Source: a virus
Reading direction: 5' to 3' (one strand)
Virus record (IMG/VR): IMGVR_UViG_3300049484_000125
Span: 1-32,373 of that record
DNA: 32,373 bases
In this document: positions 17,870 to 32,373 of the stretch, one piece after another
Position numbering within the stretch: the stretch's first letter is position 1
Layout of the letters: the number at the start of each line of letters is the position of its first letter
Program-made: the position numbers and the translations under genes
Notes under the pieces: generated by a model
Told to the model about the DNA's origin: nothing
What the model saw: only the letters and a program-made list of their open reading frames with translations
Databases searched by the model: none

Positions 17870-17887
17870 AATAAGCCTCAATCATGG

Positions 17888-18242: not shown

Positions 18243-18288
18243 TTTTTATATCTCCTATTAATAGATTTTTGTCGACAGGCGCATTATA

Positions 18289-19396: not shown

Positions 19397-19444
19397 CACT
19401 TTTCCTTTTGCCCGCCGAACTGGACGGGCTATATCTTTATACCA

Positions 19445-20424: not shown

Positions 20425-20526
20425 GACTTCCTGTTCGTCTTGATAAGCCTGTGCAACGTTTAGGGCTGGTTTTGGGGCTTTGTCCCGTTTGGCCCCTGTG
20501 CTTTTGGGGCAAGTGTTGGCAATGTC
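20026..20526 (-). CDS. overlapping open frame without clear start (possible frameshift extension)
   Basis: A 167-codon frame open on the minus strand that crosses the end of the membrane protein gene, the 150-nt gap and the first 280 nt of the 133-residue gene. It has no ATG early on. Its translation looks protein-like, with segments KPALNVAQAYQDEQEVTATS, KFRKKWLEFDCQKG and GKRRVEEFIISHDCHYPERF. It could be reached by a -1 shift from the membrane protein gene, but I see no canonical slippery heptamer there. It may be a gene with a rare start, a recoded tail, or chance. Confidence 0.3.
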   Translation of the reverse strand, partial: DIANTCPKSTGAKRDKAPKPALNVAQAYQDEQEVTATSQDDLSAIFEALCQPSGSQAKFRKKWLEFDCQKGVHHGKFATYENKSRVREKGGYVGRFDAATRLGEYGKRRVEEFIISHDCHYPERFTQDLDECGIRGIEVKGWASGRSFSGLSSGGRPSGSEEGNRQ

Positions 20527-21230
20527 TCATCGGAAGCCGCGTACCTTAGTGTTGGCTGCTGTGGCTTGCTAGCTCTGCGCTCTGTTGGCTGTTGCTTTTT
20601 ATCGCCGCGCAAAATCCGAAGTACCGCCTCAACCTCTTCGGGTGTATATTTCTTTTCAAGCCCTTCGATTGTACTCAGTAACGTATTGCCATTTTCAAGC
20701 AGGTTTTCAGCAACTTTGGCGTTCATTTCTTGATCTAACATCGCCGCTAATGATTGAGCCTTGCGCCGCTTGCGCGCTACGTCCGGGTCATTGTAGTAAT
20801 ACAGGAACCCGACAATCGTATGCAAACCGGTAGCGATAACCACGCCACCCAAGAGCCATACCGCCACAGTCGCATCAGTATCAGCGGTAGGAATGAAATC
20901 AGCCACACCTAAGATTATCGAAGTTATAAAGGCGATACCAGCCATAATCAAGGAACCTTTACGCCAACCTTCGGTTGTGTGATTGTACTGCCAAGACACT
21001 TCCCACATGATAAAGGGGATTGCACAGGCAAATGAGGCTGCCAGAGCCTTCCAAATGCTTTGAGTCAATCCATAGATGACATCATAGGCGCGGACATCGG
21101 AAACGATCACCACAACGTTGGAAAATGCAGCTACGATCAGCGGGGCATTACCCACCACGTTTTTTGAGATCCAACCTTCCTCTTCATTTTGCGCTTGCAA
21201 TAATCCCGCAACTGTTTTTTTTTCACTCAT
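20460..21230 (-). CDS. multi-pass membrane protein with cytoplasmic tail, 256 residues
   Basis: Residues about 28-50, 58-80, 92-112 and 120-145 are hydrophobic, giving four membrane segments. A charged, helical region follows (KRRKAQSLAAMLDQEMNAKV, then GLEKKYTPEEVEAVLRILRG) and a Gln/Pro-rich tail. GGAGGT lies 9 nt before the ATG. Resembles host- or phage-encoded membrane proteins of unknown function. The tail could extend into the -1 frame, which remains open past the stop. Confidence 0.6.
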   Translation of the reverse strand: MSEKKTVAGLLQAQNEEEGWISKNVVGNAPLIVAAFSNVVVIVSDVRAYDVIYGLTQSIWKALAASFACAIPFIMWEVSWQYNHTTEGWRKGSLIMAGIAFITSIILGVADFIPTADTDATVAVWLLGGVVIATGLHTIVGFLYYYNDPDVARKRRKAQSLAAMLDQEMNAKVAENLLENGNTLLSTIEGLEKKYTPEEVEAVLRILRGDKKQQPTERRASKPQQPTLRYAASDETLPTLAPKAQGPNGTKPQNQP

Positions 21231-21375
21231 TCCATACCTCCAAATACCGCTTTATTTTGCCGTCCTCGATAATGACTGACATCAGCCGCCGCCCGCGCTT
21301 GACCTGCGGCGCAGCCGTGAACTGCAACAAGGACAGAAATAGACATACTAGACCGAACAAGAGAAGACCTATCAC
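21223..21375 (-). CDS. small membrane protein, 50 residues (GTG start)
   Basis: The GTG at 21375 overlaps the upstream stop as GTGA. The translation starts with a membrane segment (IGLLLFGLVCLFLSLLQF, residues 2-19) and ends in a basic soluble part (VKRGRRLMSVIIEDGKIKRY). This frame is preferred over another frame here that starts ATG but has no such pattern. It overlaps the start of the four-segment membrane gene by 8 nt. Confidence 0.55.
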   Translation of the reverse strand: MIGLLLFGLVCLFLSLLQFTAAPQVKRGRRLMSVIIEDGKIKRYLEVWNE

Positions 21376-21572
21376 TCATTTTCTTCCAGTTTGTCCGCTT
21401 CAAACTCGCATTGTTCGGCGATATGCTCATCACCTGCCACACGCCACAACTCCGCCGCCCGTATCCAGTTTCCAACCGTTGGATACTCCCGCGCCAGCTT
21501 CCTAGCCGCACGCGCCTTATCTTCTAGCCCGCGCTGTAACTCTTCAATTTGCCGTTCATCCGCTGATTTCAT
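21372..21572 (-). CDS. small helical protein, tandem paralogue 1
   Basis: 66 residues, strongly helical: KSADERQIEELQRGLEDKAR, then a middle YPTVGNWIRAAELWRVAGDE. It is clearly related to the protein encoded at 21594-21803 (ADERQI at the start, NW-AA in the middle, AEQC near the end). The leader before the ATG (ATAGGTGACAAAATG) is also shared, so the duplication includes the ribosome site. Function unknown; similar length and charge suggest a structural or regulatory adaptor. Confidence 0.6.
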   Translation of the reverse strand: MKSADERQIEELQRGLEDKARAARKLAREYPTVGNWIRAAELWRVAGDEHIAEQCEFEADKLEENE

Positions 21573-21593
21573 TTTGTCACCTATTCATAATTA

Positions 21594-21803
21594 TCAAATT
21601 CGTAAATCATCAATTCCACTCGCGGCTTTTGCCAGGCATTGTTCGGCAACCTCATCCAGCCCTGCCAGTTTCGCCAATGCCGCCGCCTGTGTCCAGTTGA
21701 ACAGGGTTGGGAAATTGTTGGCACGCTGCAAGGTGATCTTTGCCTTGTTTTCCAGTTCTGCAATCTGTCGTTCGTCTGCTTTTCTAATCATCCAATCAAG
21801 CAT
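21594..21803 (-). CDS. small helical protein, tandem paralogue 2
   Basis: 69 residues with the same pattern as its downstream neighbour: KADERQIAELENKAKITLQR, FPTLFNWTQAAALAKLAG, VAEQCLAKA. A ribosome site AGGTGAC precedes the ATG within a leader shared with the other copy. The two copies differ at many positions, so the duplication is not recent. No known family. Confidence 0.6.
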   Translation of the reverse strand: MLDWMIRKADERQIAELENKAKITLQRANNFPTLFNWTQAAALAKLAGLDEVAEQCLAKAASGIDDLRI

Positions 21804-21813
21804 TTGTCACCTA

Positions 21814-22344
21814 TTAGAAATAACCTTGAAATTCCAGCTTTCCCGTTATACCCAAAGACCTAATGCTCATCATTCTGTAAAATTCGTCTTTGTAATGTTC
21901 TGCAATTTGTTGTTTTTCTTGTCTCGCTTGCTTCCCAATCATAATGTCGGTTGACTTTTCGATAAGGATTTCATAAAAATCCATACCAAGTTGCGAGAGT
22001 TTCCATTCCTTGAAAACATGCGGGTTTTGTTCAAACTTTGAATGACAACCGTAACAATGAGCATCAGCATCTAACGGGTCAAATCTTACAGAATAATTAG
22101 CGCGTCCGATGTAGTGACTACAATGTAAACCCTGATTTTTAGGTAATCCGGCTCCGGTATATTGTGGCTCGTAATGTTTGCCGCAAGCCTGACAGGTCCA
22201 GTTTGCACGTTCCCTAACACACAAGCTAAACCACATATCGGGGGATTCACGCTTGATTTTCTTCTTTGTCTTGACCGGCTTCGGCTTCGGATGGATTGCC
22301 GCCATAACCAGGTGTTGATCTGCGGCTCTAGTAATGTTACTCAT
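21814..22344 (-). CDS. ninG: NinG-like recombination protein (zinc-binding)
   Basis: The start at 22344 (MSNITRAADQHLVM) gives 176 residues. The core has a Cys/His cluster typical of lambda NinG: CQACGKHYEPQYTGAG, then LHCSHYIGRANYSVRFDP and CYGCHSKFEQNP. NinG (Rap) is a lambda protein involved in Red/phage recombination and branched-DNA handling. Its start overlaps the upstream gene's end. The family call rests on the Cys/His order and the flanking aromatic residues. Confidence 0.75.
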   Translation of the reverse strand: MSNITRAADQHLVMAAIHPKPKPVKTKKKIKRESPDMWFSLCVRERANWTCQACGKHYEPQYTGAGLPKNQGLHCSHYIGRANYSVRFDPLDADAHCYGCHSKFEQNPHVFKEWKLSQLGMDFYEILIEKSTDIMIGKQARQEKQQIAEHYKDEFYRMMSIRSLGITGKLEFQGYF

Positions 22345-22597
22345 GCGCGTGTAATACTTCCTCAAACATCGGAGCGGGAACTTTCTCGCCTGCAATCGCC
22401 TTAGCGTATGCAATCTTTGGCTCTTCGCCAGCATTGCGCCAATCCCTGTACAGCCGGGCGCGTGACTTACACTGCTCGTATTCGCCCGTATTATAGAGTT
22501 GGTCAAGCTGCAAGCCTGCGATAATATTATGCGCCTGTTTCCAGTGCCGCGCTATCTTTTCGTCAAGCATCCAGTCGGTAAGATTGAATCCGCTCAT
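22337..22597 (-). CDS. hypothetical helical protein, 86 residues
   Basis: Starts MSGFNLTDWMLDEKIARHWK and ends EEVLHAHE. Strongly helical, with several Arg/Lys clusters (CKSRARLYRDWRNAG). It overlaps NinG by 8 nt and the larger upstream gene by 4 nt (ATGA). No family recognised. In such position, phages often encode replication or recombination helpers; that is guesswork. Confidence 0.5.
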   Translation of the reverse strand: MSGFNLTDWMLDEKIARHWKQAHNIIAGLQLDQLYNTGEYEQCKSRARLYRDWRNAGEEPKIAYAKAIAGEKVPAPMFEEVLHAHE

Positions 22598-23121
22598 TTT
22601 TGCACCTTTGGAAAAGCTAAATCATACTCTTTTACAAATATCTTTGACGCCCTTACTAATCGGGTAGGTACTCCAAAATCTGTGGTTAACTTGCTTGCCC
22701 ATTTATACATTATGGTGGCTCTGCGTTCCCACTCTGGCGCGCCGTGCTTGTTTTCGATCTCCGCTTCCATCGCGTCATTCCCGCCGCTGAAATTCTCAAG
22801 CCAGTCCTGCGCCTCTTCCAAATCAAACTCATGGATGCGCCAGTTACGGCAAACCACCGCCCAGCGGGTATATGGAAACTTGCGCCGTAACTTCCTAATC
22901 GGTTCGGAATTGCCACCATTCTTGTATGAATACTTTAGCAATTGGACGAAAAGAGTATAAGCATCCGACAGATTTTTTACGGTATCCTCACCGCGTCCGA
23001 TTGCGCTTGCCATTTTCAGGACATCGCGCCGGCTCCGCAATTGATAGGCAAGGCGCGCCACACGCCACCGCTTTGCATCCGCCTGAGACCATAACAGGCG
23101 GGCAAGTTCAAAATTATTCAT
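22594..23121 (-). CDS. hypothetical protein, 175 residues
   Basis: The start at 23121 (MNNFELARLLWSQADAKRW) has CGGAG 5 nt upstream; longer frames overlap the regulator gene. Helical and basic, with YTRWAVVCRNWRIHEFDLEEA in the middle and a C-terminal block VPTRLVRASKIFVKEYDLAF. Possibly DNA-binding or replication-linked, but no domain can be named. It overlaps the winged-helix-like gene by 8 nt, so it is in the same operon. Confidence 0.5.
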   Translation of the reverse strand: MNNFELARLLWSQADAKRWRVARLAYQLRSRRDVLKMASAIGRGEDTVKNLSDAYTLFVQLLKYSYKNGGNSEPIRKLRRKFPYTRWAVVCRNWRIHEFDLEEAQDWLENFSGGNDAMEAEIENKHGAPEWERRATIMYKWASKLTTDFGVPTRLVRASKIFVKEYDLAFPKVQK

Positions 23122-23344
23122 GCGACTCCGGGTTGTGTTTGTAACTATCAACGATCCGGTAAACGTGCTTTCCGCCCCGTTGTATCTTCTCTGCCATTCC
23201 CAGCCGCACCAGCTTTTCAAGCAGCCAACTGATATAACCAGAACTTTCCGAACCCAAAACGTCACCCATTTCAGACATAGTTAGTGTCGGGTGACGTTGG
23301 CTTTGCGCCTCTAATAGTTGTTTATGTTTCTTTTCAATATCCAT
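23114..23344 (-). CDS. winged-helix-like transcription regulator
   Basis: 76 residues from the ATG at 23344. Residues about 20-65 (TLTMSEMGDVLGSESSGYIS, then LLEKLVRLGMAEKIQ, then GGKHVYRIVD) read as helix-turn-helix plus beta wing, as in MarR- or ArsR-like small regulators. It is preceded by a perfect TTGACA-17-TATAAT promoter with the -10 box only 7 nt from the ATG. It would be the first gene of a transcript of its own and could be an early or lysogeny regulator. Confidence 0.6.
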   Translation of the reverse strand: MDIEKKHKQLLEAQSQRHPTLTMSEMGDVLGSESSGYISWLLEKLVRLGMAEKIQRGGKHVYRIVDSYKHNPESHE

Positions 23345-23351
23345 GACTTGC

Positions 23352-23380
23352 ATTATACGAAAATATCTTCTAACTGTCAA
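23352..23380 (-). promoter_or_regulatory. perfect sigma70 promoter, leaderless
   Basis: On the minus strand TTGACA (23375-23380), 17 nt, TATAAT (23352-23357). The next 7 nt (GCAAGTC) lead directly to the ATG at 23344, so the transcript should begin at or next to the start codon. Confidence 0.85.
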
Positions 23381-23397
23381 GTAAAAAAAACCCCATG

Positions 23398-23475
23398 TCA
23401 AGAGTTCATCACCTGCCAAATTGCGGCTATGACAAGCAGTGCCAGCAACGCCTGGACCATATCGCCGCGCATCAT
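23398..23475 (-). CDS. tiny membrane peptide, 25 residues
   Basis: Starts MMRGDMVQALLALLVIAAIW; a single hydrophobic helix with little else. The start overlaps the stop of the upstream gene as ATGA. Peptides of this kind can be membrane-active, but it may also be non-functional. Weak evidence beyond the overlap. Confidence 0.35.
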   Translation of the reverse strand: MMRGDMVQALLALLVIAAIWQVMNS

Positions 23476-23630
23476 AACGGCTCAAATCCTTCAAGCGCGT
23501 CTGAATGCTCTTCAAATATACCTGCCAGTTCCCACGCCCACTTTGCGTCAATTTTAACCTCATACCAGTAATCACCCCATAAGTCAAAAAAGATAATCAT
23601 TCGGTTTATAAACTTTATTATTTTATTCAT
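23472..23630 (-). CDS. hypothetical protein, 52 residues
   Basis: The product begins MNKIIKFINRMIIFFDLWGD, then has an acidic helical end (EHSDALEGFEPL). AGGAG is 7 nt before the ATG. It overlaps the larger upstream gene by ATGA. No known family. Confidence 0.5.
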   Translation of the reverse strand: MNKIIKFINRMIIFFDLWGDYWYEVKIDAKWAWELAGIFEEHSDALEGFEPL

Positions 23631-23911
23631 TTCGTCTCCTCTCCCGCACAGGCGGGGACCAGTATCAGTTCTGCAAAACAGCCTTCAACAAGCCGGATAT
23701 ATTCGCCGCCTGCCATATTACAATAATGTTCTGCGCGTGTGCGGCATGTTTGCGCTGTTGAGTATCGCCCGTTTTGATTAGCCAGGATTGCCAACCTTTG
23801 CCAGTCTTTGGCGTATTCTTGCATATCAGGGATGTTATTCATCAAGGATAGCTCACACCATCTATCCATAATTTCATCACGTACAATATAAGGGGCTTGT
23901 AATTCACTCAT
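23627..23911 (-). CDS. hypothetical protein, 94 residues
   Basis: A helical, Cys-containing protein (MSELQAPYIVRDEIMDRWCE, then QEYAKDWQRLAILANQNG, then TCRTRAEHYCNMAG). It has some likeness in layout to the tandem helical proteins at 21372-21803, in that residues in the middle form a TPR-like pair, but this is not certain. It shares its first base with the stop of the next gene. Role unknown. Confidence 0.5.
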   Translation of the reverse strand: MSELQAPYIVRDEIMDRWCELSLMNNIPDMQEYAKDWQRLAILANQNGRYSTAQTCRTRAEHYCNMAGGEYIRLVEGCFAELILVPACAGEETK

Positions 23912-24459
23912 TATCTTTGTCCTGTCTTTGCAATTCTCGGACGTGCTACATTTGCGGGGCGGGGTACATAGGTAGTTTCAGCCGCCTTTCGCTCTTCTAT
24001 CATCGCTCTTGTTTGTTCTATCTTTTCTGTGTTCAACGTCGGCATGGCGGGCTTTGCCTTGCTTTTCATCCCAATTGCCGTGACCGTCAACGCGCCAGGA
24101 CGTCCAACCGTAAAGCCTTTGTCGCTTTGCGCTTGCGCCCAAGCCATGCGGATGTGATCGGGTTGCAACTTCTCATCCTTCCATGCCCAAAAGGTATCTA
24201 CAAAGTCGGTAAACGTCCGCTTTGTCGGTTCCTGCCCGGTCAGTTCGTGATACAAATCCGCGTAAACTAATAACGGCTCTGGTATCCTTTCCCGATTCTC
24301 GTAATTGTTCGGCTGCTTGTTTATCGCGTCAAGTTGCTGTTGTGTTATCTTGTCATCGCTCTGCATTAGTATCTCTAATGGAAGCGGCGCACCTGCAAGC
24401 CGTTGCTTCATGCGTTCTTTATATTCTTGTTTCGCTACTTCCTGTATACTCATTGTCAT
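23911..24459 (-). CDS. hypothetical protein, 182 residues, possible replication-related
   Basis: GAGG lies 7 nt before the ATG at 24459. The N-terminal half is helical; the middle (VDTFWAWKDEKLQPDHIRMA, then WAQAQSDKGFTVGRPGALTV) looks like part of a helical DNA-binding or replication module, and the tail is basic and disordered. I do not recognise a named family. It follows the long gene-free stretch that may encode a structured RNA. Confidence 0.5.
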   Translation of the reverse strand: MTMSIQEVAKQEYKERMKQRLAGAPLPLEILMQSDDKITQQQLDAINKQPNNYENRERIPEPLLVYADLYHELTGQEPTKRTFTDFVDTFWAWKDEKLQPDHIRMAWAQAQSDKGFTVGRPGALTVTAIGMKSKAKPAMPTLNTEKIEQTRAMIEERKAAETTYVPRPANVARPRIAKTGQR

Positions 24460-24474
24460 TGTTTACCTCTTCTT

Positions 24475-24965
24475 TTTTTATGGTCTGGTTCGCACCTTAG
24501 GGCGGAGGGTAGGAGCGAAGCGCAGTTATTCCTTGTCCTTGCATGTCTGACTTCACTCAGGAATTGCACCTTAGGGCGTATGGGTTATCGCTTGCTTGCA
24601 ATTCTCAACTATAGCCAAATTACTCGCCTGTTGAAACGCATCTATTCCGCGTTGGCATTAGTTGACGTTCGTATAGTTCCAGTTCATTTATAGTCTGATA
24701 GACTTAGGGCGCGTGCCTCTCGTTGTTCGTAGAGGTTTGAGGGTGATCTAATTTGCGTTCGCTACTCCGCCCCGGTGTTGTGGTCAGTCACACCCGCCGG
24801 GAGGCTTGTATCTGGTTTATTACTATGTATCTTTTACGCGATACCGTAAAAGAATTTCTGCCAGTATTGGAGTTTCCATCATTTACCGAACACCCTAAAG
24901 CTGAGTCTCCTGTATAAATGATACTCACATCGCCTATCCCGCCGCTGACAGCTCCAGCGTTTAGT
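24475..24965 (-). ncRNA. candidate large structured RNA in a gene-free stretch
   Basis: About 490 nt with no convincing gene on either strand. It carries several local inverted repeats: 24831-24838 with 24845-24852 (8 bp), 24716-24720 with 24731-24735, 24692-24696 with 24700-24704, 24561-24567 with 24598-24604, 24943-24947 with 24955-24959. GCACCTTAGGGCG occurs twice exactly (24492-24504 and 24566-24578) and a related copy near 24702. The density of stems and repeats suggests a folded RNA, likely on the minus strand with its neighbours. I cannot match it to a known class. Confidence 0.4.
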
Positions 24966-24975
24966 GCGGAGTGGC

Positions 24976-25455
24976 TTATATACTATTCATTGTGCTAATT
25001 AATGCGTTTATGCTCTTCAATTCAATTTCTTTTATTGCTATAAATGCTGAACTTTTATCCTTATTCCATATTTCTCTTCTCTGTTTATCAAGCATTCCTG
25101 TACTTCTAATTTTATTTATATCCACCAACCACCAATCAATAACCTTTTCTTCCTGCGTCCAAATATAAAGGTAATAATCGGCAAATCCTTTTCTTATCTT
25201 TTGCAATTCTGTCTCGGTTCCGTAAGGTCTGCGTGATCGTATTGTTAAGTCTTTATATTGACTTCCGATACTGCGCCTAATCCTTACCGCAACTGTTCCG
25301 CCTTTCACGTTTACTATAAAGTCGGTTGCTTGCTTCATGTCTGCGTGTTCGTCTGCAACATCTATTTTTATTAGGCTTATGCTATTCAATAAAAGTATTT
25401 GTTTAACGTATTGATAAAAATTTGTTTGCCAATCGAAATCTTGAGTAAAGTTCAT
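24976..25455 (-). CDS. nuclease-like protein (possible PD-(D/E)xK fold), 159 residues
   Basis: The start ATG at 25455 overlaps the methyltransferase stop as ATGA. Residues about 32-64 (DVADEHADMKQATDFIVNVK, then GGTVAVRIRR) and later RSRRPYGTETELQKIRKGFA and YLYIWTQEEKVIDWWLVDI have the strand order of a PD-(D/E)xK-like nuclease: an Asp, a glycine turn, then a strand with a basic residue. The usual Glu-x-Lys pair is not clear (the strand reads VAVRIR), so activity is uncertain. Pairing with a DNA methyltransferase suggests a restriction-like role. Confidence 0.45.
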   Translation of the reverse strand: MNFTQDFDWQTNFYQYVKQILLLNSISLIKIDVADEHADMKQATDFIVNVKGGTVAVRIRRSIGSQYKDLTIRSRRPYGTETELQKIRKGFADYYLYIWTQEEKVIDWWLVDINKIRSTGMLDKQRREIWNKDKSSAFIAIKEIELKSINALISTMNSI

Positions 25456-26432
25456 TTTGCTTCTTTGCCCCATCCATCAAACCCATCAATCTTACGACGA
25501 TTGAACATATCCAATCTACGCCCTGCCGTGACGCGTCTCAGTGTTTCGTAAAACTCTTCGGGCTTTTCACTGTGTCCAGTCCGTTCACCTTCAAAGGATG
25601 TCTTAAATGCTTTGGTATCAATAAAAATAGGCGTTCCTTTACGTCCATATAAAACAAACTCATTATTATATTGAGGTAATCCCACAACTTGATAACCGCC
25701 CTTTTTGTGCCAATTGAACGTACAAACATACTTCAAACCCCAAACATCTAAAAGTTTAAATGCGGAAGGCAAATATTTTTGAGTTGTCCATAAAAACACA
25801 TGACAATCATCGGCACATGGTATTTGTAGTGCGCCTATTTCTTCTAATTCCATAGGTGGGTAATCAAAAGATGTTTGGTTGGGTCTTACGTCTCGTTCTA
25901 TTTTTTCCATAACCCAGGGCGGGTCAATAACTATTACATCGTAAACCCCGTTGACTTTTTTAGTTTCCATAATCCCTATATCAATCAAGTTAGACTTCGC
26001 TTCATCACGCCTTAACTCTTTTATCATCCCGCTTGTGGTAATAGGTCTTTCGCCGCGCATTTCTTCAAGATGTTTTTCGAATACCAATTCTGGCATTTCT
26101 GCTACTTGTTGCCAGCGATAAGCGGATGCGACAGGAATATTGTTTTCTTCTATAACTTCTTTGAAGTCGGAAACTTTATCAGCCTGATATAGTTTTGATG
26201 GCCTTCCCTCTTGTCCGTGATCTAACTGCTTTAAAAACTCGCCCGCCTTGCGCTCTGCCCTTGCTTTTACTTCCGCCGCATGGTTGTACGCCTCAAGCCC
26301 CAGCTTTGCGGCTCTGGCGTATGTCCGTGCCGCCTCTGCAATGTCCATGATGTTTTTTACTTCATCAAGGCTCTTCGCCTCTGCTAACATCTGTGTTGCT
26401 TTGTCTAGTTTTGCGAGTGCGTTTATGCTCAT
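25452..26432 (-). CDS. MT-A70 family adenine DNA methyltransferase
   Basis: 326 residues. The N-terminal 150 form a helical region with EVKARAERKAGEFLKQLDH, and a helix-turn-helix-like part VASAYRWQQVAEMPE, the type found in ParB/RstR-like fusions to these enzymes. The catalytic part has DPPW at residues 170-173, then FLWTTQKYLPSAFKLLD, NEFVLYGRKGTPIF, and HSEKPEEFYE, all expected in MT-A70 proteins, which transfer methyl groups to N6 of adenine. GAGGAC lies before the ATG. Its message is preceded by a large hairpin with a T run. Confidence 0.85.
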   Translation of the reverse strand: MSINALAKLDKATQMLAEAKSLDEVKNIMDIAEAARTYARAAKLGLEAYNHAAEVKARAERKAGEFLKQLDHGQEGRPSKLYQADKVSDFKEVIEENNIPVASAYRWQQVAEMPELVFEKHLEEMRGERPITTSGMIKELRRDEAKSNLIDIGIMETKKVNGVYDVIVIDPPWVMEKIERDVRPNQTSFDYPPMELEEIGALQIPCADDCHVFLWTTQKYLPSAFKLLDVWGLKYVCTFNWHKKGGYQVVGLPQYNNEFVLYGRKGTPIFIDTKAFKTSFEGERTGHSEKPEEFYETLRRVTAGRRLDMFNRRKIDGFDGWGKEAK

Positions 26433-26453
26433 TTGTCCTCAGTGTTTAGGGTT

Positions 26454-26539
26454 AAAAAAAGTCGGCTTTCTTTGGGCTTGCGGCTTGCGGACTCCCAACG
26501 GGCAGGGATGCCACAAACCCAAAGAAAAACGACTTTCTT
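26454..26539 (-). terminator. intrinsic terminator or attenuator before the methyltransferase gene
   Basis: On the minus strand AAAGTCG-TT-TTTCTTTGGG pairs with CCCAAAGAAA-GC-CGACTTT across about 40 nt of internal sequence, then TTTTTTT. It lies about 20-40 nt before the methyltransferase start, so transcripts from upstream must pass it. It may be an attenuator. Confidence 0.75.
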
Positions 26540-26594
26540 GGCCCGTTATTTTTTATTAGCGTCCGCACGCTGTTTGTCTTACGCATTAATATTA

Positions 26595-26801
26595 TCACGA
26601 ATTACCAGAAATACAAGAGGCAATTTTTTTCATCTCTGCCCGGTGCCTGCGTCCGTACTCCGCCTTGCAAGCATGGCAGACATTACCGTGCGTTGGGAAG
26701 CTGCCAGCGGTAGGTCCACACTTGCGGCATACTCTCAGCTTCTTTGGCGGCTGGTTGGCTTGCCTGAGTTCTGTCAAGCGTTGAGACGTGATCGCGTTCA
26801 T
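26595..26801 (-). CDS. small zinc-finger protein, 68 residues
   Basis: The start at 26801 overlaps the upstream stop as ATGA. The centre has CRKCGPTAGSFPTHGNVCHACK, two CxxC pairs with a spacing that fits a zinc ribbon, and a basic C-terminal region KAEYGRRHRAEMKK. Such a protein could bind nucleic acids or form part of a nuclease. Its gene ends before the large hairpin. Confidence 0.6.
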   Translation of the reverse strand: MNAITSQRLTELRQANQPPKKLRVCRKCGPTAGSFPTHGNVCHACKAEYGRRHRAEMKKIASCISGNS

Positions 26802-26971
26802 TTTACGTAAGCCACCACGCGCCCTATTGTTTCGCTTGTCCAAATCCAAGCCTCTTCAATATGCTTATCTTCAAGCCATGCGGCAGTATCATGGTCGTAT
26901 TGCTTCGCCTTGATAATGTGCCAGGGTTCCAATGTATCAGGCGGGGCTTCGTCGTAATGGATGATTGTCAT
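26798..26971 (-). CDS. hypothetical protein, 57 residues
   Basis: A short frame beginning MTIIHYDEAPPDTLEPWHII, with several His and Trp residues (AAWLEDKHIEEAWIW). AGGA lies 8 nt before the ATG. It is the first clear gene of the minus-strand operon, after a hairpin-rich leader. No family recognised. Confidence 0.55.
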   Translation of the reverse strand: MTIIHYDEAPPDTLEPWHIIKAKQYDHDTAAWLEDKHIEEAWIWTSETIGRVVAYVK

Positions 26972-26990
26972 TGTTTATCCTTTCGTAATG

Positions 26991-27147
26991 TTGCCCGTCA
27001 ATGGAACTGTTAAGGGAAGCATTGACGGGCAAGTCCTGAAACGGGCGGATCGTGCCCGTATTCATTCTGTAAAGGTATCCTCATCACCCCGCCCGCCATT
27101 TTCCTGTTTACTGCTAAGTCGGACTGATTTACACGAAACGGGCGGGG
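26991..27147 (-). promoter_or_regulatory. hairpin-rich leader of the leftward operon
   Basis: Three inverted repeats lie between the control region and the first leftward gene: TTGCCCGTCAATG with its perfect complement (26991-27003, 27020-27032), ACGGGC/GCCCGT (27041-27046, 27054-27059), and CCCCGCCCG/CGGGCGGGG (27087-27095, 27139-27147). No gene is seen here. No T runs follow, so they look like leader structure rather than terminators. Confidence 0.5.
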
Positions 27148-27179
27148 CTTCCAGAGGAGAAAGCGCCATGAAACGCTTC

Positions 27180-27200
27180 GATGTCATATTAGCATAAAAT
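27180..27200 (-). promoter_or_regulatory. possible leftward promoter with extended -10
   Basis: On the minus strand TATGCTAATATG contains TG-N-TAATAT, an extended -10-like box, just left of the 13-bp-arm palindrome. No good -35 box. It could drive the leftward operon starting at 26971. Confidence 0.35.
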
Positions 27201-27213
27201 CAAATAAAAAACA

Positions 27214-27248
27214 GTTAGCTTAAGTTTGCGTTTTCAACTTAAGCTAAC
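27214..27248. promoter_or_regulatory. 13-bp-arm palindrome between divergent genes (operator or terminator)
   Basis: GTTAGCTTAAGTT (27214-27226) and its perfect complement (27236-27248), separated by TGCGTTTTC. It lies between the leftward and rightward genes. On the minus strand TGTTTTTTATTTG follows, so it could also act as a terminator for antisense transcripts; its position between possible divergent promoters favours a repressor site. Confidence 0.6.
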
Positions 27249-27281
27249 CATTCTCTAATCTAATTTTGGAGTATTTCATTG

Positions 27282-27287
27282 TAGAAT
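27282..27287 (+). promoter_or_regulatory. -10 box of a probable rightward leaderless promoter
   Basis: TAGAAT (5 of 6 consensus bases) ends 6 nt before the ATG at 27294; no ribosome site lies close to the ATG. A -35 box is weak. The +1 would coincide with the start codon. Confidence 0.5.
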
Positions 27288-27293
27288 AAGCAT

Positions 27294-27551
27294 ATGACAA
27301 ATAAAGATGTAACCAAAATAAGAGCCAATAAATTTGATGAGTGCGTTTTGGAGCTTTCACCAGACGCTCAAAAATACTTCAAAAATACCGTGAAGTATAT
27401 ATCAGACCAACTTGCAAATGGAGCCGGGACGTTATCTGCAAAGGAATTGATATTTCAATTTATGCGTTATATGAATGACAAACAGGCGGAAGCGATAAGC
27501 CAACCTGAGATATTGCGGGATGGAGCAGTGGTTAGCTCGGAACGCTCATAA
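27294..27551 (+). CDS. hypothetical protein, 85 residues, overlapping a tRNA gene
   Basis: Starts MTNKDVTKIRANKFDECVLE and is helical and mildly acidic; the region up to AEAISQPEILRD reads like a compact helical domain. The last 12 codons lie inside the tRNA gene, and the stop TAA is formed from the anticodon loop. First gene of the rightward set, likely leaderless. The protein may have ended elsewhere originally, with the tRNA inserted at its 3' end. No family known. Confidence 0.6.
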   Translation: MTNKDVTKIRANKFDECVLELSPDAQKYFKNTVKYISDQLANGAGTLSAKELIFQFMRYMNDKQAEAISQPEILRDGAVVSSERS

Positions 27552-27586
27552 CGTTCAGGTCGGCAGTCCGAATCTGCCTCCCGCAA
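27514..27586 (+). tRNA. tRNA-Met (CAT anticodon)
   Basis: A complete cloverleaf: acceptor TGCGGGA with TCCCGCA (7 bp), D stem GAGC/GCTC with AGTGGTTA loop, anticodon stem GAACG/CGTTC with loop CTCATAA (anticodon CAT at 27547-27549), T stem GGCAG/CTGCC with loop TCCGAAT, discriminator A. No CCA is encoded. The anticodon stem lacks the three G-C pairs of an initiator, so it is an elongator Met or a CAT tRNA-Ile. The T loop has C where T/psi is usual at position 55. Confidence 0.85.
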
Positions 27587-27604
27587 CTTATTAGAAAGGA
27601 TACC

Positions 27605-27790
27605 ATGACTAAAACAAATCTAACGCCCTCAGTACAGATAAGCACATCAGGCACAAAGCAGGACATCAAGGTTACGCCCAAGTATCCTTTTGAAAGTATC
27701 CGGCAGCTTGACAATAAGAACGGCGAGCGCGGTACGCAGAACAAGCCGCACGCGCATGTAAAGCCGCCCAAACATTTTTGGCAAAAATAG
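27605..27790 (+). CDS. small basic protein, 61 residues
   Basis: AGAAAGGA lies 6 nt before the ATG. The product starts MTKTNLTPSVQISTSGTKQD, is polar and basic and likely disordered, ending HVKPPKHFWQK. It follows the tRNA by 18 nt and precedes a larger gene by 11 nt. No family recognised. Confidence 0.5.
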   Translation: MTKTNLTPSVQISTSGTKQDIKVTPKYPFESIRQLDNKNGERGTQNKPHAHVKPPKHFWQK

Positions 27791-27801
27791 GAGATAAGAC
27801 C

Positions 27802-28200
27802 ATGAAAATTGAATTACTACAATATGTAAAATCATTTAGTCCTGCCTCGCCAATTCCATCATGGTTAATGACCATGGGCGATCTTGCAGAACTTCTCACC
27901 ACCAAAGCAGAATTAGAAGAGGGCATGAAACTTATGATGACACTAGGCAGTGACGACGATAAAAAGGTTGACGGTATTATTATGCAGGCTGAAAAGAAAA
28001 TGACGCGGCACGTTAATCCTGCGACAAATGGAAGCGTGCGCCCATTGCCGCGCACCACGACAGAGCGGACAGCAAATGCTGCCGATATTGCGCTGGATGA
28101 AAATGGAAATCTACGCCCATACGCCAGCTATTCCCAAAAGTCACGCGGCGCGTTAGTTGACAATCATGAAATACACTCCTATACATGGGACGGTGAATAA
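27802..28200 (+). CDS. hypothetical protein, 132 residues
   Basis: The ATG at 27802 is preceded by TAGGAG; an ATG further upstream lies within the previous gene. The N-terminal 60 residues are helical and acidic (TTKAELEEGMKLMMTLGSDD); the C-terminal half is polar with ERTANAADIALDENGNLRPY. Its stop shares a base with the next start. Unknown function; early-gene position. Confidence 0.5.
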   Translation: MKIELLQYVKSFSPASPIPSWLMTMGDLAELLTTKAELEEGMKLMMTLGSDDDKKVDGIIMQAEKKMTRHVNPATNGSVRPLPRTTTERTANAADIALDENGNLRPYASYSQKSRGALVDNHEIHSYTWDGE

Positions 28201-28454
28201 TGATTACATGGATAAGATTTGATTGGAAGGAACAACCAACTTTTCAAGATATAAGTGAAGCCCTAGCCCCTCATGGACTTACTGTAAAAAGTTTTGAAAA
28301 TGGCGATGAATACGAATACGCCATTGTTACACCCGAAACAACAAACAGTCAAATTATAGATAGTATTATTGACAATTTTGACGATGCGGATAAAACGCGG
28401 GAAGAATTACACAAAGAACTATTAACATTTATTAAGGAGTTGCCAGCCGCCTAG
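28200..28454 (+). CDS. hypothetical acidic protein, 84 residues
   Basis: Starts MITWIRFDWKEQPTFQDISE and has many Asp and Glu residues (IDSIIDNFDDADKTREELHK). The start overlaps the stop of the preceding gene (TAATG). Small acidic phage proteins sometimes mimic DNA or inhibit host enzymes, but there is no specific evidence here. Confidence 0.5.
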   Translation: MITWIRFDWKEQPTFQDISEALAPHGLTVKSFENGDEYEYAIVTPETTNSQIIDSIIDNFDDADKTREELHKELLTFIKELPAA

Positions 28455-28547
28455 TACCTCGCCGCACGTCCCGCCCGCAGTCCCGCCGGTATGCAGGACA
28501 CAAATCAAACATGGGCAACGCCCTATAACTAAAAAGGATAAACTAAA

Positions 28548-29021
28548 ATGGACGCTAATGAACTATTCCCCGAATCACAATATTTGAAATCAGATGACGT
28601 TGAAGCTGTTGGAGAAATGCTGTTGACAATCAAAAGCATTGTACCCAAGATTTACACCGACGAAACCACCGGCAAAGAAGAGCGAAAGGGCGACCTTTCA
28701 TTTGTTGAAGAGAAAAAGAAACTTGCTACCAATGTCACAAACAACAGAACTCTTGTTGCTATGTTCGGAAAAACAGACATTGAAAAGAACTGGGTCGGAA
28801 AACAAATTACTCTTTATGTTGATCACAATATCCCGTATGGCAATAAAATAGTAAGTGGGATACGCATTCGTAACATTGACCCAAAACAGGATGCAATTAC
28901 CGCGTTTTGGACGGAAGCTCATAAGATGGGATTGACCAATATCGAAGGTCAAGCCATTGTAAAAGAAAACGGCGGCGATTTTGCAAAAGCATTAGCCGCA
29001 CTGGATAGCCCGTTCAAATAA
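28548..29021 (+). CDS. phage protein of a recombination/replication neighbourhood, 157 residues
   Basis: A ribosome site AAAGGA lies 11 nt before the ATG. The protein starts MDANELFPESQYLKSDDVEA and has a beta-rich core with NRTLVAMFGKTDIEKNWVGK, QITLYVDH, and VSGIRIRNIDPK, a pattern I associate with conserved phage proteins found beside ssDNA-annealing or exonuclease genes. Its C-terminus is helical. No catalytic site is apparent. Family assignment is by memory of layout only. Confidence 0.5.
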   Translation: MDANELFPESQYLKSDDVEAVGEMLLTIKSIVPKIYTDETTGKEERKGDLSFVEEKKKLATNVTNNRTLVAMFGKTDIEKNWVGKQITLYVDHNIPYGNKIVSGIRIRNIDPKQDAITAFWTEAHKMGLTNIEGQAIVKENGGDFAKALAALDSPFK

Positions 29022-29084
29022 CCCCGTCCCCGTCCTCCCGCTCTTGTCGCTCTTGACCGGGCGGGAGGCAAGGCAACAAATACC

Positions 29085-29357
29085 ATGAAATGTCCATACG
29101 GAAACCACGAAACGAACAAAGCAGTTCAACAAGGTGATAAGTTCTGCACGTGTAATGTTTGCGGAAAATCATCAGCCGTTGTTACATTTGGAACACTGGA
29201 CGGGTATAAATATCAACTCGTAAAGGTTGGTAGAAATACATCCAACGATCCAAAACTTGTCCGCAATATAAGGCTTTCAAATTCTGAAATGAAGGCGATT
29301 GAACGTGGCGACTTGAAATTATCTGTTAGTGGTTTTCGTATTACACTTACTATATAA
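29085..29357 (+). CDS. small zinc-ribbon protein, 90 residues
   Basis: Starts MKCPYGNHETNKAVQQGDKF and then CTCNVCGK, giving CPxxxH and CxxC elements for a zinc ribbon, followed by a beta-rich basic C-terminus LKLSVSGFRITLTI. It is the last gene before the first attC-type core sequence, only 6 nt after its stop. The preceding gap 29022-29084 holds CCTCCCGC/GCGGGAGG, an 8-bp inverted repeat over a 19-nt loop. Confidence 0.5.
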   Translation: MKCPYGNHETNKAVQQGDKFCTCNVCGKSSAVVTFGTLDGYKYQLVKVGRNTSNDPKLVRNIRLSNSEMKAIERGDLKLSVSGFRITLTI

Positions 29358-29363
29358 ACAATA

Positions 29364-29370
29364 GTTAGGC
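29364..29370 (+). other. left boundary core GTTAGGC of the cassette array
   Basis: GTTAGGC, the R' core of an integron recombination site, occurs alone here: there is no upstream GCCTAAC or palindrome within about 130 nt. It could be a secondary insertion point or an attI-like crossover site at which the first cassette was inserted. Confidence 0.5.
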
Positions 29371-29393
29371 GTTTTCTTCGAGAGGCATAGGTT

Positions 29394-29567
29394 ATGAAAG
29401 AGATTGTTTTAGATCATCCAGTAGCAGAAGTTACCGTGTTTTATGTTGAGGAATATAACGCTATTGTTCTCAGGCAAGAAACGCGAAAAGGTCATGTTGA
29501 TATTTTGATGACGATAAGCCAGTTGCAAGAACTTGTAAAAAAACTTGTCGAGATAGATTGCGTCTAG
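29394..29567 (+). CDS. cassette A gene 1, hypothetical, 57 residues
   Basis: First gene of the first cassette, 30 nt after the boundary core, with AGAGG 9 nt before the ATG. The protein starts MKEIVLDHPVAEVTVFYVEE and ends with a helical stretch QLQELVKKLVEIDCV. Beta-helix layout; no family recognised. It is one of two genes in a cassette of about 340 nt. Confidence 0.5.
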   Translation: MKEIVLDHPVAEVTVFYVEEYNAIVLRQETRKGHVDILMTISQLQELVKKLVEIDCV

Positions 29568-29574
29568 GTGCTAC

Positions 29575-29709
29575 ATGGCAAAACAAATAGTCTTTTGGCT
29601 TTTATCTGAATTTCAATGGTGGTGGGTAAACAAATACCCTAGCCAAATGATACCGAATAAAAAGGTGCGTGAGTTTTTGAAGTCCGCTTTTCAATGGTCA
29701 CACGCCTAA
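29575..29709 (+). CDS. cassette A gene 2, hypothetical, 44 residues
   Basis: Starts MAKQIVFWLLSEFQWWWVNK, a Trp-rich amphipathic or membrane-active peptide, and ends FQWSHA. The stop codon TAA comes from the GCCTAAC core of the following attC site. Only 7 nt separate it from gene 1, suggesting a two-gene unit. Function unknown. Confidence 0.45.
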   Translation: MAKQIVFWLLSEFQWWWVNKYPSQMIPNKKVREFLKSAFQWSHA

Positions 29710-29827
29710 CAATGCTTGCACTGGACAGGGCTTCGCCCCTGATCGCCAGCGGGTCTTCCCTGCTGATGTGCTTGAAAGCAGAAACGCCTTGCCCGCGTCG
29801 CCCTGCCAGTAAAGCAAACCGTTAGGC
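29704..29827 (+). repeat. attC site 1 (124 nt)
   Basis: Starts GCCTAAC and ends GTTAGGC, an inverted pair, with imperfectly paired flanks: CTTGCACTGG at the left and CCAGTAAAGCAAACC at the right. The centre contains GGGCTTCGCCCC. Matches the layout of an integron attC with a long variable middle. Confidence 0.85.
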
Positions 29828-29843
29828 TTCTTGAAGGTGAAAC

Positions 29844-30041
29844 ATGAGATCATTCCATAGCGACAGAGAGCAAGCGCAAGAGTTCTGCAACGCCACAAAT
29901 CATAAATGGCTTGAAGAATATTACGGCTATGTTTGCGAGAATTGCGGGTTATTCATCCCGTATGGTTCAGCGCCGTGGATGCCATTTGACCCTGATGATT
30001 GTCCAGAAGTATATTACTTCGAGTGGGATGACGAAGCCTAA
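29844..30041 (+). CDS. cassette B gene, zinc-knuckle-like, 65 residues
   Basis: AAGGTGA precedes the ATG by 3 nt. The protein starts MRSFHSDREQAQEFCNATNH and contains CENCG plus upstream Cys and His residues that could bind zinc; the C-terminus is acidic and aromatic (DCPEVYYFEWDDEA). The stop TAA lies in the GCCTAAC core of attC 2, as in other cassettes. No family recognised. Confidence 0.6.
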   Translation: MRSFHSDREQAQEFCNATNHKWLEEYYGYVCENCGLFIPYGSAPWMPFDPDDCPEVYYFEWDDEA

Positions 30042-30126
30042 CACCGCGTGCACCAGACGTCAGGCAGGCTGGCGTCATAATTGGACAGTAGCCAGTGCCT
30101 GCCGCTGGTAACGCAAACCGTTAGGC
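30036..30126 (+). repeat. attC site 2 (91 nt)
   Basis: GCCTAACACCGCGTGCACCAG at the left folds with CTGGTAACGCAAACCGTTAGGC at the right, an imperfect palindrome with unpaired bases, as expected for attC. The middle has a second inverted segment around GGCAGGCTGG/CCAGTGCCTGCC. Confidence 0.9.
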
Positions 30127-30132
30127 AACCCT

Positions 30133-30792
30133 ATGCGTATCCTTGTAGCTTGTGAGTTCAGTGGTGTGGTTCGTGAAGCGTTCTCCGCGCTCGGTCACGA
30201 GTCCTGGTCATGTGATTTATTGCCTACGGAAATCCCAGGCAATCACTATCAGGGTGACATCCGAGATATTTTATACAGCGGATGGGATTTGATGGTTGCA
30301 CATCCTCCCTGCACAAGGTTATGTAATTCGGGCGTTCGTTGGCTCGCAGAAAGAAACCTTTGGCAGGAAATGCGGGAAGCATCCGAGTTCTTCAAACTCA
30401 TTCTAAATGCACCTATCGCAAAGATTGCAGTTGAAAATCCGATACCCCATAAATACGCGGTTGAAATCATCGGTAGAAAATACGATCAGATAATACAACC
30501 GTATCAGTTCGGGCATGGTGAAACAAAAGCTACATGCCTTTGGCTAAAAGGTTTGCCAATGCTTGAGAGTACAAATATCGTGGAAGGTAGGGAACAAAGA
30601 ATACATAAAATGTCACCTGGAGAAAACCGTTCACATGAGCGGTCACGCACGTATCAGGGTATCGCAAACGCATTTGCGGCGCAATGGGCAGGTTGCCTAA
30701 CACCGCGTGTACCCGACTCTTTGAAGGCTGGCGTTTTGAGCCTGCCTGAATCCGTGTTCGTTGAAAATGCCTTGCCTGCCGTGAGCGGGTAA
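30133..30792 (+). CDS. cassette C gene, DNA methylase-like phage protein
   Basis: 219 residues; starts MRILVACEFSGVVREAFSAL, then HESWSCDLLPTEIPGNHYQGDI, WDLMVAHPPCTRLCNSGVRW, AVENPIPHKYAVEIIG, and YQFGHGETKATCLWLKGLP. The pattern matches a widespread phage family resembling C5-cytosine methyltransferases (nucleotide fold at the start, a PC motif in HPPCT, ENP motif), often annotated as DNA methylase-like. Activity on DNA is plausible, not shown. Family members usually end near QWA-G; here the frame runs on through attC 3 for about 30 residues encoded by the recombination site. No good ribosome site lies before the ATG, which is 7 nt after attC 2. Confidence 0.75.
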   Translation: MRILVACEFSGVVREAFSALGHESWSCDLLPTEIPGNHYQGDIRDILYSGWDLMVAHPPCTRLCNSGVRWLAERNLWQEMREASEFFKLILNAPIAKIAVENPIPHKYAVEIIGRKYDQIIQPYQFGHGETKATCLWLKGLPMLESTNIVEGREQRIHKMSPGENRSHERSRTYQGIANAFAAQWAGCLTPRVPDSLKAGVLSLPESVFVENALPAVSG

Positions 30793-30807
30793 CGCAAACC
30801 GTTAGGC
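30695..30807 (+). repeat. attC site 3 (113 nt)
   Basis: GCCTAACACCGCGTGTACCCG at the left, GAGCGGGTAACGCAAACC then GTTAGGC at the right. Same inner boxes as site 2 (GTAACGCAAACC). It overlaps the 3' end of the methylase-like frame. Confidence 0.9.
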
Positions 30808-30856
30808 GTTTTGTTGCGCGGTCAAAAACTCGTGATAAATTGGTGTCTCCAAACCC

Positions 30857-30885
30857 TTGACACGTTGTACAACGTGTAGTAAGAT
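30857..30885 (+). promoter_or_regulatory. cassette-borne promoter with 18-bp palindromic operator
   Basis: TTGACA (30857-30862), 17 nt, TAAGAT (30880-30885). A perfect 18-bp palindrome ACACGTTGTACAACGTGT (30860-30877) fills the region between the two boxes. Binding of a dimeric repressor here would block transcription of the two genes that follow. Confidence 0.75.
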
Positions 30886-30936
30886 AGGGGTATAAGTTGA
30901 TAGGCGCTATCAACAAAATCAAAAAGGAGTTTTGAA

Positions 30937-31131
30937 ATGAACAAGAATATCGTAGACACCGCAACAAACGAAGTTATCGGATCAGTCGTCACCAACCAAT
31001 CTTTGACATTTGACCAAACAATGGAACTTGCAGGTTTTGAATATGTCGAAGGTAACGAAACTGGTTGGTCAAAAGATGGCGGGCGCACCGTCTACAACGA
31101 AGAAACCGCTGAAATCGTCGAAGCCGAGTAA
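30937..31131 (+). CDS. cassette D gene 1, hypothetical, 64 residues
   Basis: AAAAAGGAG precedes the ATG by 8 nt, about 50 nt after the cassette promoter. The protein starts MNKNIVDTATNEVIGSVVTN, has a middle QTMELAGFEYVEGNETGWSK and an acidic end ETAEIVEAE. Small acidic partner-like protein; it could be an antitoxin or regulator given its promoter, but no domain supports this. It ends just before the start of the second gene. Confidence 0.6.
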   Translation: MNKNIVDTATNEVIGSVVTNQSLTFDQTMELAGFEYVEGNETGWSKDGGRTVYNEETAEIVEAE

Positions 31132-31132
31132 C

Positions 31133-31345
31133 ATGGCAGAAAAAACAAAGGGGAGCCGCAAGGCTCCCCGCACCCATCAGGCACACTGGCACGATAACAC
31201 CATCAACGCCCGAAGCGATAAACGCAAAGCAGAAATGCAAGCGGCGGCGGAGTTGAATGGCTTTGAAAAGTGGTCAACGATGATGACCTACATAAAAAAT
31301 CAGGCGTTGCAAGGCAAAGCAACTGTAAGCAAAGACAACGCCTAA
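31133..31345 (+). CDS. cassette D gene 2, basic protein, 70 residues
   Basis: Begins MAEKTKGSRKAPRTHQAHWH, strongly basic at the N-terminus, and ends QALQGKATVSKDNA. The start lies 1 nt after the previous stop. The stop TAA belongs to the GCCTAAC core of attC 4. A basic protein after an acidic one behind a palindromic operator is the layout of many toxin-antitoxin or DNA-binding pairs; function not shown. Confidence 0.6.
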   Translation: MAEKTKGSRKAPRTHQAHWHDNTINARSDKRKAEMQAAAELNGFEKWSTMMTYIKNQALQGKATVSKDNA

Positions 31346-31468
31346 CACCGCTTGCACTGGACTGGTGGGTACGGCGCGGCTCACAAGCATTATCTACACT
31401 AAAAATTTGGTTGCGCTTTCTGGCTTTATCTCCACCCTCCCACCAGCCAGTAAAGCAAACCGTTAGGC
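31339..31468 (+). repeat. attC site 4 (130 nt)
   Basis: GCCTAACACCGCTTGCACTGG at the left; CCAGCCAGTAAAGCAAACC and GTTAGGC at the right. Outer arms pair as in sites 1-3; the long middle is A/T-rich and differs. Confidence 0.9.
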
Positions 31469-31493
31469 AACCACTTTTCAAAAGGAGTTTTAC

Positions 31494-31655
31494 ATGAAAG
31501 CACACACGTTTTTCGCATGGAAGTTTTGCAAGTTTGGTTATATGTATCGCGGTGAAAACTTCTGGCAATTGCTTCTCGGCATTGTCATCATAAGCCGTAT
31601 GCCCGCTGATAGTCGTGCGGTGCAAGAGTATTGGGCAAGCAAGCAGGTTGCCTAA
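31494..31655 (+). CDS. cassette E gene, 53 residues, possibly membrane-associated
   Basis: AAAAGGAG lies 8 nt before the ATG. Starts MKAHTFFAWKFCKFGYMYRG, then a hydrophobic stretch FWQLLLGIVIISRM (residues 23-36). The stop is in the GCCTAAC core of attC 5. One gene in a cassette of only about 190 nt plus the site. No family recognised. Confidence 0.55.
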   Translation: MKAHTFFAWKFCKFGYMYRGENFWQLLLGIVIISRMPADSRAVQEYWASKQVA

Positions 31656-31739
31656 CAAAACATGCAGCGGACATTGGGCGGGCGCAGGTAATTTACTGCG
31701 AAGGTTCTACCGCCCATGCCGCTAATGTAGCCGTTAGCC
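31650..31739 (+). repeat. attC site 5 (90 nt)
   Basis: Starts GCCTAAC and ends GTTAGCC, so the next cassette begins TTAGCC. The inner arms GCAGCGGACATTGGGCGG and CCGCCCATGCCGCTAATG pair. The inner boxes differ from those of sites 1-4, indicating a different attC subtype. Confidence 0.85.
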
Positions 31740-31764
31740 TGCTTCCTTGCAGGCGGAGGTAATA

Positions 31765-32166
31765 ATGGACAAACTCGAAATTTATAAAAATAAAGCCATG
31801 CGCCTAGAAAAAGCACTTCGCCAAATTATTGATACCCGTCATCGTTCTTACGATGGCATGTTGAGCATTGCTAATTATGCGCTTGAAGAAGAAGTCCGCA
31901 TCGAAGAAGCGCAGGCTAACACCGCGTGCGGCGGAATTGGGGCGGGCGTAGGTGTCCGCAGGTTGAGAACCAGCCGCCCCAATCCGCTAATGCCTACCGT
32001 TAACCCGCTCGGAGCAAATATGGTTATTGTGAAATTAAGTCAATTGCTAGAAGTAGCCAATCGCATAATTAGCGAGTCTCGCCAGTTAGGTGATTTGAGC
32101 GAAAGAGATATTCTTGTATTGCAAACGGGTTTTCAAAAGTTGCTGCGGGGTCTAACACCGCGTTAA
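31765..32166 (+). CDS. cassette F/G fused open frame, 133 residues
   Basis: GGAGGT lies 5 nt before the ATG at 31765. The first 52 residues (MDKLEIYKNKAMRLEKALRQ, helical) end at attC 6, but the frame stays open through that site, encoding about 30 residues of Gly/Arg/Pro-rich sequence, and continues into the next cassette (MVIVKLSQLLEVANRIISES, helical). The second part also has its own ATG at 32020 with GGAG 5 nt upstream. The stop lies in attC 7. Possibly two cassette genes that read as one by chance, or a true fusion. Confidence 0.5.
   Translation: MDKLEIYKNKAMRLEKALRQIIDTRHRSYDGMLSIANYALEEEVRIEEAQANTACGGIGAGVGVRRLRTSRPNPLMPTVNPLGANMVIVKLSQLLEVANRIISESRQLGDLSERDILVLQTGFQKLLRGLTPR
31914..32005 (+). 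repeat. attC site 6 (92 nt)
   Basis: Starts GGCTAAC, the exact complement of the TTAGCC with which this cassette begins, and ends GTTAACC. Arms GCGGCGGAATTGGGGCGG and CCGCCCCAATCCGC pair. It resembles site 5 in its inner boxes. The last three bases deviate from GTTRRRY. Confidence 0.8.
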
Positions 32167-32278
32167 CCCGACAAAAGGGATTTGTCCCCGTCTCAGGCAT
32201 TTTCTCAGCCTGAATTTTTATCCGACTTATAAGGTTTGTCCTAGCCCGCCCTTTTGCGGGTTAAGCAAACCGTTAGGT
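32150..32278 (+). repeat. attC site 7 (129 nt)
   Basis: Starts GTCTAACACCGCGTTAACCCG and ends GCGGGTTAAGCAAACC plus GTTAGGT. The outer arms pair well (GCGTTAACCCG with CGGGTTAAGC). Inner box GCAAACC is as in sites 1-4. Confidence 0.85.
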
Positions 32279-32309
32279 GGCTTCATTGCCAGCCGAGAAG
32301 CGAGAGAAA

Positions 32310-32373
32310 ATGAAACACTATAAAAACAAACGTGTCATGCTAAGAAATGGTGGAAAGTTTCGCAAGGCTATTC
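32310..32373 (+). CDS. start of cassette H gene (cut by window edge)
   Basis: ATG at 32310 follows a purine-rich stretch (GAGAAGCGAGAGAAA), about 32 nt after attC 7, and the frame is open to the window end. The first 21 residues (MKHYKNKRVMLRNGGKFRKA and one more) are basic. Too short to classify; it shows that the array continues beyond the window. Confidence 0.5.
   Translation, partial: MKHYKNKRVMLRNGGKFRKAI

Follow-up and report, generated by a model that had tools for sequence, protein, structure and literature searches.

Clusters of attC sites lacking an integron integrase gene (CALINs) are already known in phages as a kind. Qi et al. (2023) described 17 integrase-less attC clusters in phages, with methyltransferase cassettes, found that phage attC sites recombined with attI1, five of the six tested sites being positive, and reported an attI at a CALIN start in the Shewanella prophage M16-3 (PMC9892861). 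The array analysed here shares attC sites, methyltransferase cassettes and the lack of an integrase gene with the CALINs of phages TJE1, P12002L and PH101, and the single direction of its cassettes with those of TJE1 and PH101. In contrast to those CALINs, it has an attI at the array start, several array-bearing relatives, probable Chloroflexota hosts, and whole cassettes that are common to viral contigs with very different terminases. Integron parts within a phage genome have also been described for temperate Vibrio anguillarum and Shewanella phages (PMC9892861); the Vibrio phage integrons are pieces of the host's own chromosomal integron, whereas the present cassettes were not found in the 396 host-class genomes that we searched at the DNA level, without a positive control. 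The class 1 integrons of plasmid R388 and others have the same attC fold, R''/R' boxes and G|TT crossover, and a model of their sites recognises the present ones, but here the attC loops are longer, intI is absent and the cargo is phage-like. Finally, the chromosomal integrons of Anaerolineae have attC sites of the same class and resemble the present array in the attI core, which makes a shared integrase specificity likely, but they carry longer cassettes and an intI gene, which diverged in direction from the array in those examples that were inspected. In the open literature, with subscription journals and preprints outside the search, we found no further phage-integron study and none on Anaerolineae phages.

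The preliminary description of this DNA had proposed a phage-borne cassette array as a new vehicle for cassette movement. The array on a phage is supported, because the attC models, the attI at the junction, the repetition of this junction in an independent contig and the sharing of whole cassettes all agree with it, but the vehicle is not wholly new, given the arrays of Qi et al. What is new is the recurring attI at the start of phage arrays, the sharing of cassettes across very different terminases and the Chloroflexota setting.

The window, i.e. the whole stretch of DNA analysed, is an IMG/VR record, a linear contig of 32,373 bases that terminates within the eighth cassette, so that the array is incomplete at the right. 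Its left 29 kb had been taken for a tailed phage, and PHROGs matches indeed recognised, within positions 1..29084, a head-tail adaptor (2952-4034), the major head protein (8609-10210), the portal (12340-13941) and TerL (13934-15199), all on the minus strand, with homologs in the syntenic viral contigs G009, G010 and G441. Early genes follow after TerL, and then plus-strand genes (27294-29021), the last of which (28548-29021, 157 aa) had no viral relatives in our search. A 90-aa gene (29085..29357, plus strand) comes next, with its stop codon inside the attI described below. The structural region also encodes an alpha-L-fucosidase domain (4864-5703, minus strand; PF01120, 1.5e-30) and, at 5769-7130 (minus strand), a bacterial Ig-like domain protein (Big_12). 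Two similar proteins (3907-4572 and 7483-8121, both minus strand) match one same gene in G009 and in G441, and are probably products of a duplication in the window phage. A tRNA-Met (cat) at 27514-27587 (plus strand) overlaps the end of a plus-strand ORF.

Seven palindromes of the integron-attC type, noticed earlier, are all present on the plus strand, 90-129 nt in length and between short plus-strand genes: attC1 (29704-29827), attC2 (30036-30126), attC3 (30695-30807), attC4 (31340-31468), attC5 (31650-31739), attC6 (31914-32005) and attC7 (32150-32278). The exact heptamers GTTAGGC/GCCTAAC occur 10 times on the two strands, all within 29364-31656, a number never reached in 100 shuffles (mean 3.45), and sites 5-7 carry the variant boxes GCCTAAC/GTTAGCC, GGCTAAC/GTTAACC and GTCTAAC/GTTAGGT, respectively. 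We scanned the window with two covariance models, R1, built from 15 attC sites of class 1 integrons on plasmids and nothing else, and R2, built from 23 related sites of other contigs with the window sites excluded. The best places of R1 in the unfiltered scan were six of the seven sites, with exact R''-R' ends (25.7, 16.4, 21.7, 14.5, 25.1 and 18.6 bits for attC1 to attC5 and attC7); only attC6, with its degenerate boxes, was missed, and all places outside the array scored below 10 bits. R2 placed all seven at the top (46.3, 77.8, 61.2, 36.6, 55.2, 48.1 and 24.1 bits for attC1 to attC7), the next best place in the window reaching 11.1 bits. As a positive control, R1 found two sites in phage TJE1, whose attCs have been shown to be functional (PMC9892861). 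In the R2 alignment, the proposed fold paired 92.8% of the cells, and a slide of the pairing partners by one column destroyed it, a control biased towards the fold, as the structure was written with the same sequences in view; independently of that, 83 double changes were counted, as against 28.5 in shuffles. Pairing was lower in the outer R''/R' helix (83.9%), which would be expected of an R' that is part of the following cassette. The predicted bottom-strand folds of the window sites leave unpaired bases of the usual attC kind, and no Rfam match was obtained for any of the seven sites. By model and by fold, with R'', L'', L' and R' boxes as in a complete integron, the palindromes are thus integron attC sites, and seven within 2.6 kb exceed the two or more clustered sites that define a CALIN.

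The left end of the array, judged by its sequence, is an attI (29347..29370, plus strand), as at the start of a complete integron. An attI matrix was derived from 11 Anaerolineae chromosomal integrons, compared at their first-cassette junctions, and the 18 bases to the left of the window crossover (G29364|T29365) ranked first of 64,712 places on both strands, the ranking having used these 18 bases only, with TTAGGC left out. The lone GTTAGGC at 29364 had been considered as half of an attC; this was rejected, as it is the crossover point of the top-ranked attI. Similar attI sequences precede the arrays of other viral contigs, and among 14 that were aligned, including that of the window, the core is complementary to a downstream R''-like box in 12, mostly the box of the first attC. 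Seven of the 14 share the left arm TGTACATTC. When IMG/VR was searched with the TGTACATTC motif alone, five contigs were obtained, three already known and two new, both of the latter with an attC just downstream on the same strand. A consensus promoter scan at the attI found no promoter, and a strict pattern for a left boundary like that of contig L031 matched L031 only. Two attI sites, each with an array of its own, are present on the viral contig G014 (L107, L108); the arrays lie on opposite strands, and G014 gave no strong IntI match.

No TIGR02249 match was found anywhere in the record, in agreement with the earlier statement that the window lacks an integron integrase. There is thus no integrase near the attC cluster within the record, which ends inside the array, and no intI next to the attI in the 32 kb, the right flank lying beyond the contig. 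A strong IntI match was detected in only a few of 25 viral array contigs, and large contigs such as G010, G014, G015 and G017 gave at most weak recombinase matches; G444 had no IntI match. Since the record has none and most viral array contigs are without IntI, the integrase is probably supplied by the host or by another phage and would then act in trans, although the contig ends within the array and an intI may lie beyond it. The same platform could, for that reason, have its own IntI in a part of the genome outside the contig and recombine in cis. Indeed, IntI, an attI-like sequence and an array occur together in G021, a contig that has a phage portal; IntI and array run the same way there, and in the IntI tree the G021 protein falls together with that of G030:C358, whose layout is alike. 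In addition, G006 (L087 871-1908) encodes, between two attC sites and thus in a cassette-like manner, an IntI-like recombinase with the integron-specific patch, which sits on a very long branch of the IntI tree, where we are unsure of its placement. We nevertheless regard recombination in cis as unlikely, in view of the few strong IntI matches among the 25 contigs and the lack of IntI in G444; moreover, the IntI of G021 lies to the left of the array beside the attI, where the window has the 90-aa gene. A distinct clade of IntI, co-directional with its cassettes, is represented in L047 and L295, of which one lies in a viral contig that has a portal gene and the other in a 13-kb MAG contig that encodes an SSB-like protein.

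We therefore interpret the locus, with good confidence and on comparative evidence, as an integrase-less integron platform on a phage, consisting of an attI that overlaps the end of a phage gene and at least seven cassettes with attC sites of the Anaerolineae type, which would be swapped by IntI. During infection, IntI would be supplied by the chromosome of the Anaerolineae host or by a co-infecting phage of the G021 kind in the same cell, and would cut the folded attC bottom strands at G|TT, so that cassettes could be added, removed or reordered at the phage attI. Phages would thereby exchange their cargo, in this case a DNA methyltransferase and small unknown proteins, by single cassettes, probably as an adjustment to the restriction of the host.

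The crossover points delimit eight cassettes, all on the plus strand: C1 (29365..29821; ORFs 29394-29567 and 29575-29709), between the attI and attC1; C2 (29822..30120; ORF 29844-30041), between attC1 and attC2; C3 (30121..30801; ORF 30133-30792), which encodes a DNA methyltransferase (phrog_757, 1.4e-60); C4 (30802..31462; ORFs 30937-31131 and 31133-31345), between attC3 and attC4; C5 (31463..31733; ORF 31494-31655), between attC4 and attC5; C6 (31734..31999; frame from 31765), between attC5 and attC6; C7 (32000..32272; ORF from 32021), between attC6 and attC7; and C8 (32273..32373), which begins at the attC7 crossover and is cut by the record end at 32373. The stop codons at 29709, 30041, 31345 and 31655 (plus strand) are formed by the attC itself (GCC TAA C), as in 10 of 98 cassette ORFs as counted in the viral contigs. 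The C6 reading frame (31765-32166, plus strand) continues without a stop through attC6 into C7, possibly as a fusion protein.

The R'' box of an integron cassette can pair with the start of that cassette, as the excised circle joins the two. We examined this relation in 80 testable cassettes from 27 viral contigs. Of the 80, 61 had four variable R'' bases that fully matched the own start, as against 12 in which they matched the downstream R', with shuffled starts giving a mean of 10.7 and a maximum of 19 matches, and 56 of the 60 informative cassettes favoured the own start (binomial p 4.5e-13). Within the window, C5 and C6 are informative and fit the own start and not the next R', and R'' of C7 fits neither side fully; all others have the same box on both sides, with R'' of C1 complementing its own start. 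Parts of the array may be decayed, because attC6 fails R1 and the R'' of C7 fits neither side.

Whole cassettes are also shared between viral contigs. The C3 cassette recurs in G014, a 56 kb viral contig, with 95.2% identity over exactly 681 of 681 nt, the identity stopping at the G|TT points, and in G444, a 37 kb viral contig, with 86% identity; its neighbours differ in both. Among the best 80 viral relatives of the C3 methyltransferase, the three closest lie in attC arrays, as against none of the remaining 77. The clearest of the other shared cassettes are those of G008/G015 (82%) and G009/G444 (88%). As the entire C3 cassette recurs in distantly related viruses, gene exchange among these phages appears to proceed cassette by cassette.

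These data bear on the idea that the array is a fragment of a host integron captured once and now an inert fossil, as the degenerate boxes of attC6 and attC7 and the record without IntI might suggest. This is doubtful, since whole cassettes ending at G|TT are found in differing neighbourhoods of viral contigs, the own-cassette complementarity is kept, many viral contigs have retained an attI in front of their array, and the search of the 396 host genomes gave none of the window cassettes.

The preliminary description had also allowed that the window spans a phage-integron junction, or that position 29364 is an assembly error. The former, taken as a junction of a phage with a host chromosome, does not hold, as the array starts at an attI that itself lies within phage sequence. 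In contig L031, moreover, an array of the same type has phage genes on both sides; terminase and portal-like genes stand at one end, and a gene for a minor capsid protein (PF06152) stands at the opposite end. As to the latter, a phage contig might have been misjoined at 29364 to a bacterial cassette array, since arrays are repetitive and many contigs break inside them. However, the 90-aa gene has a single homolog among the contigs compared, at 43% identity, and this homolog immediately precedes the attI of G444, a contig in which the best match to the window TerL reaches 22% identity. Because a contig with so distant a terminase repeats the order of 90-aa gene, attI and array, the comparison indicates that the junction is real. 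The array therefore lies inside a phage genome, with phage genes to its left in the window, the same order in G444 and phage genes on both flanks in L031. An assembly chimera is also at odds with cassettes that are common to other viral contigs and yet were not found in the 396 host genomes, and with the equal G+C on the two sides of the junction (0.466 and 0.470), and we consider it very improbable. The reading of the palindromes as terminators, or as repeats of the REP type, located between small genes of the phage, with which imperfect hairpins separating short genes would agree, has a negligible chance of being right and was dropped, because it leaves unexplained the class 1 model matches with exact ends and the shared cassettes, and such repeats would show neither the own-start rule nor whole-cassette sharing.

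The hosts of the window phage are probably Anaerolineae, because the attC and attI classes match those of their chromosomes and TerL relatives occur in their genomes, with the reservation that MAG binning can err. IntI above the curated cut-off was found in 56 of 199 genomes of this class and attC sites by model in 68 of the 199, and TerL relatives of 36-56% identity in 12 of 396 Anaerolineae genomes; among isolated phages, TerL identity was 24% at best in the matches listed. No attC was detected in the TerL-bearing stretches of Anaerolineae MAGs, and the search of the 396 genomes for the window cassettes gave no sign of exchange with host chromosomes. In GTDB genomes, a strict attC pattern had no match, and a looser one matched at five places, of which four were in MAGs labelled Chloroflexota and the fifth was in a Pseudomonadota-labelled one. 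As the array contigs were mostly found through attC, we counted prevalence only via TerL or major head protein searches, excluding more distant major-head-protein matches: attC sites were present in four of the six relatives of at least 30 kb (G001, G002, G010, G435) and none in the other two (G436, G441).

The larger phage cassettes mostly encode DNA methyltransferases of several kinds, and further cargo includes a Mom-like modification protein, an HNH endonuclease, an RNA ligase and FtsK gamma domains; PADLOC matches in the phage cassettes were mainly to methyltransferases and HNH proteins. In contrast, the cassettes of the Anaerolineae host integrons carry restriction-modification, toxin-antitoxin, NUDIX and transporter genes, although several encode methyltransferases too, and we observed no proven excess of methyltransferases in phage over host cassettes. 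A role of the phage cargo in counter-defence is plausible.

Taken further, and on balance slightly favoured, is a phage-dedicated integron system, in which different Anaerolineae phage lineages would keep an integrase-less attI and exchange their own cassette pool, made of DNA modification and other possible counter-defence genes, and would rely on IntI supplied by the host or by a few helper phages whose own IntI is distinct and co-oriented. Phage mosaicism is usually attributed to illegitimate or homologous recombination. If the phage-dedicated system exists, phages would in addition swap genes site-specifically, and would be users, not just carriers, of integron cassettes. As docking site and cargo are in the same genomes, single-cassette exchange between distant phages is directly testable. 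In Anaerolineae, an abundant and little-studied bacterial class, the restriction-modification integrons of the hosts and the orphan-methyltransferase arrays of the phages look like one recombination system.
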